From: Flaviflexus salsibiostraticola
GTDB taxonomy: Bacteria > Actinomycetota > Actinomycetes > Actinomycetales > Actinomycetaceae
Direction of reading: 5' to 3'
Length of the DNA stretch: 64,000 bases
Assembly (NCBI RefSeq): GCF_003952265.1
Contig: NZ_CP034438.1
Coordinates: 1,674,001 to 1,738,000, forward strand
The notes beneath the pieces were generated by a model. It saw only the letters and a program-made list of their open reading frames with translations, ran no database searches and was not told the origin of the DNA. This document shows, piece by piece, positions 46,608 through 48,732 of the stretch (position 1 is the first letter of the stretch; every line of letters starts with the position of its first letter). The translations under genes and the position numbers were made by a program.

Positions 46608-47231
46608 CTACAGCTGGAAGGCGGCCGCTGCGGCCAGCGCGCCGAAGGCGTTGAAGGCCCAGTGGAGGCCGATGGGGGCGAGGATCGAGTCGGCTCGGTG
46701 ACGCAGCCACGTGAAGGCGGCACCCGCGAACGAGGTGGCGATGACGGCGAGGCCGATTCCGGCCCACTGGGCTCCGGTTCCCGAGCCGAGAATGTTCGTG
46801 AGGCCGGCGTTGCCCGCGGTCAGGTGGAGCGAGGAGCCGATATGCCAGAGTCCGAACAGCAGCGAGCCGATGATGACGACGGCTTTGAGTCCGCCGAGCT
46901 TGTGGAGCGAGCTGTGGAGGATCCCGCGGAATGCCAGCTCTTCGGGCAGAACCGTCTGGATGGGGATGAGAATGAACGCGGCGACAAGCGCCTTGCGTGC
47001 CGACGAATAGGTGTCGCTGAGGAAGAAGTCACGAGTGATCGGCAGGAGCATGCCGATGATGACTGCGAGCAGAACAGCCCCGGCGGCGATACCGCCGTAG
47101 ATAAGGCCCTTCTTGACGGTTCTCCGAGATAGGCCGATGTCGGCCCACGTGTGGCCGAAGGCCTTGCCGACGGCGAGGATGATGATCGCGCCGAGGGGAA
47201 CCGTGAAGAACCACATCGACAGTAAGAATAG
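46608..47231 (-). pseudogene. CPBP-family intramembrane protease, C-terminal part cut by IS110
   Basis: 207 codons of an Abi/CPBP membrane protease. All three catalytic motifs are here: EELAFR, FGLWH (FxxxH) and HWAFN (HxxxN), embedded in six helices. The open frame runs upstream to GTG 47264, but its first 11 codons lie in the IS element and are not native. The missing N-terminal 44 codons are at 48601-48732, on the same strand beyond the element. Joined at CCC|CTA the two parts give an uninterrupted protein of 251 residues, normal for the family. A truncated product from an IS-derived start is possible but would lack the first helix. Confidence 0.85.
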
Positions 47232-47243
47232 AAGTGCCTGATC

Positions 47244-47408
47244 TTCTCGAATGGTTTGACCCACACAGCGATCGACCCCTGAACAGTCGGTCAGGTGCCG
47301 TGAGTGTTCCCGAAAGGTTCTGACTCACACTCTGATCGACCAGCGTGTCTTTCCCCGGACCTGTCGACCATTCGAGAACACTCACGGCGAGGCTTTCGCC
47401 TCGCCGTG
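47244..47408 (+). ncRNA. Candidate bridge RNA region of IS110
   Basis: The leader upstream of the transposase is packed with repeats. 47244-47255 pairs perfectly with 47367-47378 (12 bp). 47298-47309 pairs perfectly with 47376-47387 (12 bp). 47383-47393 pairs with 47398-47408 in a tight hairpin (11 bp, TTTC loop). The last two stems share 47383-47387 and cannot form together, and the first two share 47376-47378. Two imperfect direct copies (16/20) ending GATCGACC lie at 47258-47277 and 47322-47341. IS110 recombinases of this gene order use an RNA from this position to choose target and donor DNA. No promoter was identified, and the RNA itself is inferred. Confidence 0.55.
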
Positions 47409-47517
47409 ATCATGTGACTCAAGAAGGGCCTGAACACCTTTTCTCTTTACTGTCTTGTCCAGGTTACCGGTCGATACGAAAGCACCACAAACAATGCACA
47501 TCGATTGGAGAAACCTC

Positions 47518-48591
47518 ATGACCTCACAACCTTTCATCACTGTCGTTGGTGGCGTAGACACCCACAAAGACCTGCATGTTGCTGCGGTAGTTGATCAGCA
47601 CGACCGGGTACTCGCAACCGAATTCTTTCCTACGACCAGGCATGGGTACAAGCTGCTCGTGCACTGGTTACGCTCCTTCGGACAGATCGCCAGGATCGGG
47701 GTGGAATGCACCGGCACCTATGGGGCGGGCCTGTTGCGCTACCTCCACGCACAAGATATCGAAGTACTCGAAGTCACCGGCCCCGACCAAGCCCTCCGAA
47801 GGCGCAAAGGCAAAGACGACACCCTCGATGCAGAGAATGCTGCTCACGCAGCCTATGCCCGGGTGCGTGCCGTGACCCCGAAAACCCGTGACGGGCTGGT
47901 TGAATCCCTACGGGTGTTGAAAGTGTCCCGTAAAACTGCGGTCGCTGCCAGACGAGTCGCGTTACAGATGATCCGCATGAACATCGTGTCAGCACCAGAC
48001 GAACTCCGTGACCAGCTGCGCACCCTGACTCGCATGAAACTCATCCGCACCCTAGCCGCATGGCGACCAGATCTCACGAAGTATCGCGATGTCACTGGCG
48101 CGTACAAGATCGCTTTGAAATCCCTTGCACGTAGGTACCTGGAACTCACTGATGAGATCGCTGATCTTGATGTCATGATCAAAAACATTGTTGATCATCT
48201 CGCCCCAGACCTCATCAAAAAACCAGCGGTCGGCTATGAGTCTGCAGCTCAGCTGCTGATCACTGCGGGAGACAACCCCGACCGGCTGACTTCAGAAGCC
48301 GCGTTCGCAGCATTGTGTGGGGCGAGCCCGATCCCGGCATCATCAGGCAAAACACACCGTCACCGGCTCAACAGGGGTGGTGACCGGCAAGCCAACTCTG
48401 CCCTGCACATCATCGCGATCGGCAGACTCAGAACCGACCCGAGAACCCAGGACTATGTGGCGAAGAAACTCTCCGAAGGGCACTCCAAAATGGAAGCCCT
48501 CAGGTGCGTGAAACGATACCTCGCACGGGAAATGTTCTACGCGCTCAAAACCAGAACCCAGGTAATCAATCAGACGCAGATTGCTGCTTGA
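47518..48591 (+). CDS. IS110-family transposase
   Basis: 357 residues. The N-terminal RuvC-like DEDD domain is visible: GGVDTHKDLHVAAV, VECTGTYGAGL and KDDTLDAENAAHA. The C-terminal transposase-20 domain includes the Ser-containing GASPIPASSGKTHRHRLNRGGDRQAN. ATG 47518 has GGAGAAA 7 nt upstream; the open frame begins at 47455 but that start lies within the leader. The gene looks intact, so the element may still be active. Confidence 0.93.
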   Translation: MTSQPFITVVGGVDTHKDLHVAAVVDQHDRVLATEFFPTTRHGYKLLVHWLRSFGQIARIGVECTGTYGAGLLRYLHAQDIEVLEVTGPDQALRRRKGKDDTLDAENAAHAAYARVRAVTPKTRDGLVESLRVLKVSRKTAVAARRVALQMIRMNIVSAPDELRDQLRTLTRMKLIRTLAAWRPDLTKYRDVTGAYKIALKSLARRYLELTDEIADLDVMIKNIVDHLAPDLIKKPAVGYESAAQLLITAGDNPDRLTSEAAFAALCGASPIPASSGKTHRHRLNRGGDRQANSALHIIAIGRLRTDPRTQDYVAKKLSEGHSKMEALRCVKRYLAREMFYALKTRTQVINQTQIAA

Positions 48592-48600
48592 CACTTAGAA

Positions 48601-48732
48601 GGGCGTCAGCGGCGTGAAGTGGGCGGCGAGGTTGAGTCCCACAAGAAGAGCGATTACTGCCAGGACCGAAAAAATCTCCCGGAGCGGAACGTGCCGGGAG
48701 GGGCTGGTCTGGGGTGCTGCGAGTACTGTCAT
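48601..48732 (-). pseudogene. CPBP-family protease, N-terminal 44 codons separated by IS110
   Basis: Encodes MTVLAAPQTS, then a basic stretch, then one membrane helix (IFSVLAVIALLVGLNLAAHF), ending at TPLTP where the IS begins. In the present sequence the frame runs one codon further and stops at TAA inside the element. The start is supported by TAGACT at 48740-48745, 7 nt upstream, the same leaderless layout as other genes here. Its other half is at 46608-47231. Confidence 0.8.

Follow-up and report, generated by a model that had tools for sequence, protein, structure and literature searches.

The leader of an IS110 element appears to encode a bridge (seek) RNA whose target loop can very probably be built in two mutually exclusive ways, each with its own left guide. 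Sequence-level support comes from repeats in the leader, from matches between guides and natural sites, from covariation and from the dependence of targets on one of the guides, guide A. We infer that both folds occur in the RNA, that each can load the recombinase and that the choice between them is made by folding or refolding. In the proposed mechanism, the 3' half of the loop, with the right target guide and the C arm, would be single and the 5' half double, formed by tandem modules A and B. When B pairs with C, the RNA would address CAY-TCN-GAY sites; when A pairs with C, it would address CAY-AGY-GAY sites (AAY-ACN-GAY in many alphaproteobacterial relatives). The donor guides and the right target guide would be common to both forms. 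The element could in this way reach a single protein motif, that of the second catalytic Asp in rve-type transposases, even where serine codons or motif versions differ, and specificity might be set as the RNA folds, through refolding, through processing or in trans.

The codons for serine fall into two families, and no single guide of such length matches both well. One guide per serine codon family would adapt a nucleic-acid guide to an amino-acid motif. The broader interpretation, which we regard as probable, is natural multiplexing of a guide RNA by half-loop swap, with 5' guide cassettes competing for one 3' guide half and the two specificities matched to the codon degeneracy of the motif. 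Bridge RNAs are being built into genome-writing tools, and those in the descriptions consulted have a single target loop.

The element, its insertion site and its leader

The window, the whole 64,000-nt stretch analyzed here, is part of a 2.6-Mb genome in one contig. It holds an IS110 element of the ISEc21 group, listed with seven copies in its own genome at 100% identity; these near-identical copies (L001-L007) suggest recent spread. A recombinase fragment in Flaviflexus huanghaiensis (L055) is 100% identical over 243 residues. The initial annotation had called the downstream gene an IS110 transposase, which matches to PF01548 (3.3e-21) and PF02371 (9.6e-15) bear out. The non-coding ends comprise 297 nt left of the ATG and 16 nt right of the stop codon. 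The features are as follows.

47212..47220, + strand: left target of the window copy, CACATCGAC; 1 mismatch to guide A, 2 to guide B
47221..48607, + strand: complete IS110 element, AGTAAG...AGAAGGGCGTC, 1387 bp; from the flanks and the uninterrupted CPBP gene of L174
47234..47243, + strand: P1, 5' strand, enclosing module A; pairs with 47289-47298
47244..47260, + strand: module A arm TTCTCGAATGGTTTGAC, predicted partner the C arm; from the inverted repeat and covariation
47264..47272, + strand: left target guide A CACAGCGAT, His-AGC-Asp codons; from guide-site comparison
47289..47298, + strand: P1, 3' strand; pairs with 47234-47243
47297..47324, + strand: module B arm GCCGTGAGTGTTCCCGAAAGGTTCTGAC, predicted partner the same C arm; from the inverted repeat, RNAalifold and covariation
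47328..47336, + strand: left target guide B CACTCTGAT, His-TCT-Asp codons; from guide-site comparison
47350..47357, + strand: right target guide TTTCCCCG, single, reverse complement CGGGGAAA; from pairing at natural sites
47358..47360, + strand: GAC, complement of the right-end GTC, at a handshake-like position; from covariation with the element end
47363..47378, + strand: C arm GTCGACCATTCGAGAA, common partner of A and B; from covariation and duplex energies
47382..47409, + strand: hairpin separating the target loop from the donor loop; 5' strand shares bases with the outer B-C stem; 3 consensus pairs
47422..47429, + strand: left donor guide AGAAGGGC, same letters as the element's right end; from end comparison
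47447..47454, + strand: right donor guide TTACTGTC, reverse complement of the left end (GAC)AGTAA; from end comparison
47518..48591, + strand: IS110 recombinase (DEDD domain and Transposase_20), 357 aa; from profile matches
48588..48593, + strand: TTGACA, 17 nt from the left-end AAGAAT in the excised circle; putative promoter-like junction, from the sequence
48597..48607, + strand: right end of the element, AGAAGGGCGTC; from flanks and end comparison
48608..48615, + strand: right target of the window copy, AGCGGCGT; only 4/8 pairs with the right target guide; a poor site

The flanks in the window, once joined, match the uninterrupted gene of L174, and a target duplication is absent. Because the L174 sequence runs through the joined flanks, GAC at 47218-47220 belongs to the target and the final GTC to the element, with nothing duplicated. 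Four genomes of the same genus (L174-L177) have the CPBP (Rce1-like) gene uninterrupted; a fifth, G848, has no match. In the window this membrane protease gene lies on the - strand (46608-47264 and from 48608 onward) and is split near its start by the element, so that the start of the leftover open reading frame is now inside the left end of the element. The copy at L002 is flanked by GC-rich inverted repeats (CTCCCGCGCG... / ...GCGCGCGGGAG).

All three perfect inverted-repeat pairs that had been claimed in the leader were recovered, with overlaps at 47383-47387 and 47376-47378 as described. The pair 47244-47255/47367-47378 matches at 12/12 positions, as does 47382-47393/47398-47409. The pair 47297-47318/47367-47388, which includes 47298-47309/47376-47387, matches at 91% over 22 nt, the outer 13 perfectly. 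Positions 47232-47517 contain 3 inverted repeats that are perfect, maximal and at least 11 nt long, compared with a mean of 0.017 and a maximum of 1 in 300 dinucleotide shuffles. Beyond these, 47250-47277 and 47314-47341 are direct repeats (D1, 75% identical), and therefore both segments are able to pair with the same partner. Modules A (47244-47277) and B (47308-47341) are repeats of each other, each made of an arm followed by a nine-base left guide between two GAC triplets; their 3' partner, present once, consists of GTC, the right guide, GTCG and the C arm. The target (47322-47365) and donor (47414-47459) loops share a common frame, TGACYC-guide-GAC ... TGTC-guide-CTGTC, which suggests that all half-loops arose by duplication. 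The third repeat is weakly general: across 37 homologues, RNAalifold retains 3 pairs of the hairpin at 47382-47409, and the 12 bp with which it competes against the B-C stem may be peculiar to the window element.

Guides, element ends and natural targets

The comparison covers loci L001-L171 (n = 171), of which 165 have the leader pattern and L027, L037, L056, L065, L134 and L155 do not. L056, read by eye and uncounted, has guide A AACACCGAT, guide B CACTCCGAT and the site AACACCGAT. Loci repeating both leader and left flank were collapsed, taking 150 hits to 83 leaders, with L028, L083 and L100 too short. A total of 98 leaders (83 and 15) yielded 91 sites after removal of truncated, masked or misaligned left ends (L034, L046, L048, L073, L078 and L104) and of a duplicate site (L158). 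Sixteen plasmid hits, non-enterobacterial by choice, were taken; L172 lacks the element. Fourteen plasmid sites (L157 and L159-L171) are part of the 91 and were read after the hypothesis had been written down. Three of these are A-class (L161, L167 and L169), and L166 is the first site for its unusual B guide.

The initial annotation had proposed a bridge RNA in this leader, and the proposal is well supported by guide matches to targets and to both element ends, together with covariation, as judged from sequence. The right donor guide is complementary to the left end over 5 nt at 90/91 sites, in the versions AGTAA, AGTCA, AGTGA and AGCAA. The left donor guide equals the right end at 78 of the 83 sites with a located right end, although right ends were located by a guide-like pattern (up to 2 changes) that favors agreement, and 8/91 sites were not located. 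The likeness is also visible without the pattern filter, and the 78 include two Herbidospora loci in which guide and end alike read AGGAGAGC. At 79 sites with a located right end, the right target guide forms a mean of 5.85 of 8 pairs, versus 3.17 for random 8-mers. In 57 of 65 unique elements, the three bases after this guide complement the final three of the element (GTC/GAC 51, ATC/GAT 5, TTC/GAA 1); the non-complementary combinations are GTC/GAT (3) and five others (1 each), and GTC/ATC is associated with GAC/GAT (Fisher 5.9e-5). This pattern is the one expected for these three bases from the handshake positions of IS621, as presented in the available part of that report (PMC11208158). The stem around the target loop is conserved in homologues. 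Comparison of the internal loops with the CPBP flank and the element ends had been suggested as a check. Guide A has 1 mismatch to the left target and guide B 2, the donor guides match the ends, and only 4/8 positions pair at the right target.

Joining of the right and left ends would place TTGACA 17 nt from AAGAAT, a promoter-like arrangement with a weak -10. Activity of such a circle-junction promoter may be supposed by analogy with relatives, and one is reported for ISEc21 in the portion of that paper available to us (PMC11187229). Within 47180-48650 as integrated, no promoter or terminator was found, and Rfam gave no match up to E 1 in 47218-47520.

Guide A is intact at 56/91 sites and decayed at 35/91. 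Sites were scored by mismatches, with wobble allowed, between the left flank and each guide. Of the 56 sites with both guides (dual sites), 28 are nearer A and 24 nearer B, with 4 ties; 27/28 A-class and 23/24 B-class sites lie within 2 mismatches. The exceptions, fitted by neither guide, are L080, assigned to A with 6 mismatches, and L076, assigned to B with 4. The best mismatches at dual sites sum to 57, whereas shuffled targets average 94 (0/20,000 permutations as low). The A and B guides divide the natural sites between them and thus cover two families of serine codons or two classes of transposase. Translated, the nine bases immediately to the left of the element give HSD at 56/91 sites and NTD at 20/91 (76/91 together), versions of the motif at the second catalytic Asp in transposases. 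In many right flanks the translation is QGSQ or RGSQ. All seven left-flank pieces tested against Pfam rve match up to profile position 73, six of them above the curated cut-off and L014 below it.

One reading holds that only B guides targets, that A is left over from the duplication of a 5' stem-loop and that A-type targets are reached through B with mismatches. ISEc21 is described, in the available part of its report, with one pair of target-matching segments, and a 58-nt RNA suffices (PMC11187229); decay of A at 35/91 sites would make A dispensable, and the off-consensus sites L002, L050, L076 and L080 also fit this reading. We nevertheless consider it very improbable, because targets in different lineages track the letters of guide A. 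Mismatches between A-class sites and their own A guides total 27, compared with 61.8 for A guides drawn from dual elements (0/20,000 as low). Where the A guide of an A-class site starts with A, the target does so in 16/17 cases, and where it starts with C, the target follows in 10/11. Many alphaproteobacterial elements have guide A AACACCGAT or similar and A-class sites of the form AAYACNGAY, one being TATACCGAT; in other elements guide A is CACAGCGAT or CATAGCGAT, and A-class sites are mostly CAYAGYGAY. Targets of the other type are also rarer where A has decayed, and the A-C pairing described below covaries and weakens along with guide A. Of the 35 decayed-A sites, 33 lie within 2 mismatches of B, with L009 and L033 beyond. 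Elements with a TC-type B guide have non-TC targets at 28/48 sites with an intact non-TC A and at 3/21 with a decayed A (Fisher 0.0013), the 28 including L050, L076 and L080, poor fits to A. When sites beyond 2 mismatches of any guide are dropped, the ratio becomes 26/46 versus 1/19 (Fisher 8.6e-5). Among the three non-TC decayed-A sites, the B guide of L039 is AACTCCGAT, and L033 and L009 have flanks of atypical appearance. A recombinase tree of 74 rows contains 10 changes of A status, at least 5 of them forced by supported branches. In a phylogeny-controlled test that is underpowered at 5 independent pairs (median p 0.25), a mean of 3.4 pairs agree, 0.1 oppose and 1.4 show no difference.

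Use of both guides by the same or nearly the same element is seen repeatedly. For the window element and its L055 copy, A-class sites are L055, at exactly CACAGCGAT, and the window copy itself (L001), at CACATCGAC; B-class sites are L003 (CACTCCGAC) and L005 (CACTCCGAT) in the same genome, and also CATTCGGAT. One other genome holds L045 (B) at CATTCCGAC and L091 (A) at AACACCGAT, and further cases are L015 (B) with L017 (A) and L014 (A) with L146 (B). On two plasmids of one host, L166 lies at AACAGCGAT and L167 at AACACCGAT, the guides being B AACAGCGAC and A AACACTGAT. Scoring leaves L166 tied: its site mismatches A at the discriminating base and B at the C/T position. Unusual guides have matching sites: B of L029 is CATACCGAC and so is its site, and A of L072 is AATACTGAT, again like its site. 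Twelve further regions were read and uncounted, the flank of L190 being masked and several duplicating earlier sites. Their new sites fit guide B (L180, L181, L182 and L188 TC-type; L187, with B CACAGTGAT, AGY-type), and no new A-type site was found among the 12.

Short flank translations in the genome of the window show L004 to resemble an insertion into the transposase motif (HSD^QG) and L005 to read HSD^RGS. The remaining copies there occupy looser sites, as if the host genome offered few good targets; translations of 30 residues, the sole basis here, do not identify most of the seven sites as transposase genes. In the Acetobacteraceae loci L077, L164, L165 and L171, a TCC-type guide stands in A and TATTCCGAT in B, as if the two were drifting to the same target. 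L181 and L182 (Tetrasphaera australiensis, the genome of L078) have guide A CACGCCGAT, with His-Ala-Asp codons, and both readable sites are B-type.

Competing pairings of the C arm

The mutually exclusive stems of the initial annotation were found again among homologues, in the form of A and B each pairing with C in about 95% of cells, and both stems covary. The alignment comprised 37 of the 39 dual arm sets, L076 and L080 being omitted as doubtful. The A-C pairing is formed in 95.0% of 774 cells, with 9/21 pairs changed on both sides (slid controls, 33-57%), and the B-C pairing in 95.6% of 698 cells, with 8/19 pairs changed on both sides (slid controls, 33-53%). The B-C register taken from the window's own inverted repeat was rejected, as only 59.0% was paired, with no excess over shuffles; a +1 slide and RNAalifold showed a bulge, and the register was corrected after those results. 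Extension of the A-C helix by the same pattern took it from 12 pairs at 93.0% to 21 pairs at 95.0%. Gene conversion between the A and B arms was considered as the cause of A-C pairing and set aside: arm identity is 0.61 within and 0.57 between elements, and homogenization therefore looks weak.

Duplex energies separate true from swapped partners. Over 39 dual arm sets, the A-C duplex averages -19.8 kcal/mol, versus -15.6 for swapped partners (0/20,000 permutations as low). In 30 decayed-A sets the A-C mean is -8.4 kcal/mol and the B-C mean -16.8, compared with -17.5 for B-C in dual sets. Guide A and its arm decay together, and B-C is hardly changed. Decayed A arms retain a slight preference for their own C over swapped partners (-8.4 vs -7.1, P 0.0017).

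A different function for the alternative folds would be regulatory, with A-C pairing disabling the target loop or controlling recombinase expression. The mutual exclusivity is real; A-C is contained in the predicted minimum-energy fold for this element (-84.3 vs -75.0 kcal/mol when B-C is forced); and P1 would form first if the transcript starts near 47234. However, a purely regulatory A needs no nine-nucleotide guide that matches natural targets. Neither fold is consistently favored over the 37 homologues: the A-C minus B-C energy averages 1.8 kcal/mol (sd 8.1), A-C is lower in 12/37, and RNAalifold, forced to choose, selects B-C. The alternation had been proposed to separate a guide form from a transposase-expression form. 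The alternative folds stand, but nothing was found in favor of that division or of a link to translation, and the second hairpin ends, as had been noted, 110 nt short of the ATG (47408 to 47518). We consider a regulatory function quite improbable, and the switch is best read as target choice rather than control of transposase expression.

The geometry of the A-C form bears on how it could assemble. P1, which likewise covaries, is paired in 85.9% of 290 cells, with 6/10 pairs changed on both sides, and its three innermost pairs are gaps in 22-28 of 37 sequences. P1 crosses the A-C pairing, so that the A-C form requires either an opened P1 or a pseudoknot. In addition, the entire B module, lying between guide A and the right guide, has to be looped out, a feature not shared by target loops in the accessible descriptions of known bridge RNAs. 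A version of the dual-guide reading would avoid both the large loop and the conflict with P1: A-C pairing could occur between two RNAs in the recombinase tetramer, assembled in trans, as suggested by the tetrameric synaptic complex described for IS621 in the part of that report seen here (PMC11208158). Intramolecular pairing explains the covariation equally well, and we regard assembly in trans as unlikely.

Comparison with known elements and distribution

As far as the available sections of the ISEc21 report extend (Siddiquee et al. 2024, PMC11187229), the target of ISEc21 is the codons around the second D of the DDE motif of certain IS3-family members. The window element resembles it in being IS110-type, in its non-coding region 5' of the gene, in its target codons and in the lack of a duplication; it differs in having two left guides, whereas those sections mention no alternative guide. 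Enterobacterial relatives, taken as ISEc21-like without direct comparison, mostly have B = CACAGCGAT and a decayed module A. The same source, to the extent seen, reports ISMch6 as a natural redirection of ISEc21 by three altered bases. L159 (Methylorubrum extorquens CM4), annotated as ISMch6 family and belonging to the same group as the window element, has A = CACAGCGAT, the same as B of most enterobacterial relatives, B = CACTCTGAT and the site CACTCGGAC. L159 thus appears to carry both guides, which does not fit a simple exchange of one guide for another and suggests a re-reading of the reported redirection.

The arrangement is like that of the IS621 bridge RNA, as described in the portions at hand, in that left and right target and donor guides lie on opposite strands with the target loop first, guides covary with targets and ends, and there is handshake-like covariation (PMC11208160, PMC11208158). 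The account of IS621 there (Durrant et al. 2024, PMC11208160) has a 5' stem-loop and a single loop each for target and donor, whereas the window element has a second left-guide half-loop at the position of the 5' stem-loop. Its pre-exchange bases, GAY in the target and GTC in the donor, form no shared CT core, unlike those of IS621 in the same account. With two left guides at 56/91 sites, the group departs from one target loop with one left guide; we treat it as a variant and retain the mechanism. In full-text searches and the accessible text of three primary papers, two alternative target guides are not described; they may have been noticed earlier elsewhere. A bridge RNA with two competing left guides, if true, would let one RNA serve two targets, and guide duplication, drift and loss would be a route for IS110 elements to change targets.

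A donor-loop pattern had no match in 396 genomes of the phylum; the pattern ended in C and the element has A, which makes the search uninformative on distribution. An exact match occurs in 3/385 genomes of the class of G412, G412 included. Recombinase identity to that of the window is 64-76% in 77/80 loci. In the recombinase tree, the Actinomycetaceae elements (window and Bowdeniella) nest among gammaproteobacterial ones, pointing to transfer between phyla, and a copy in a Verrucomicrobiota MAG (L071) nests among alphaproteobacterial elements.
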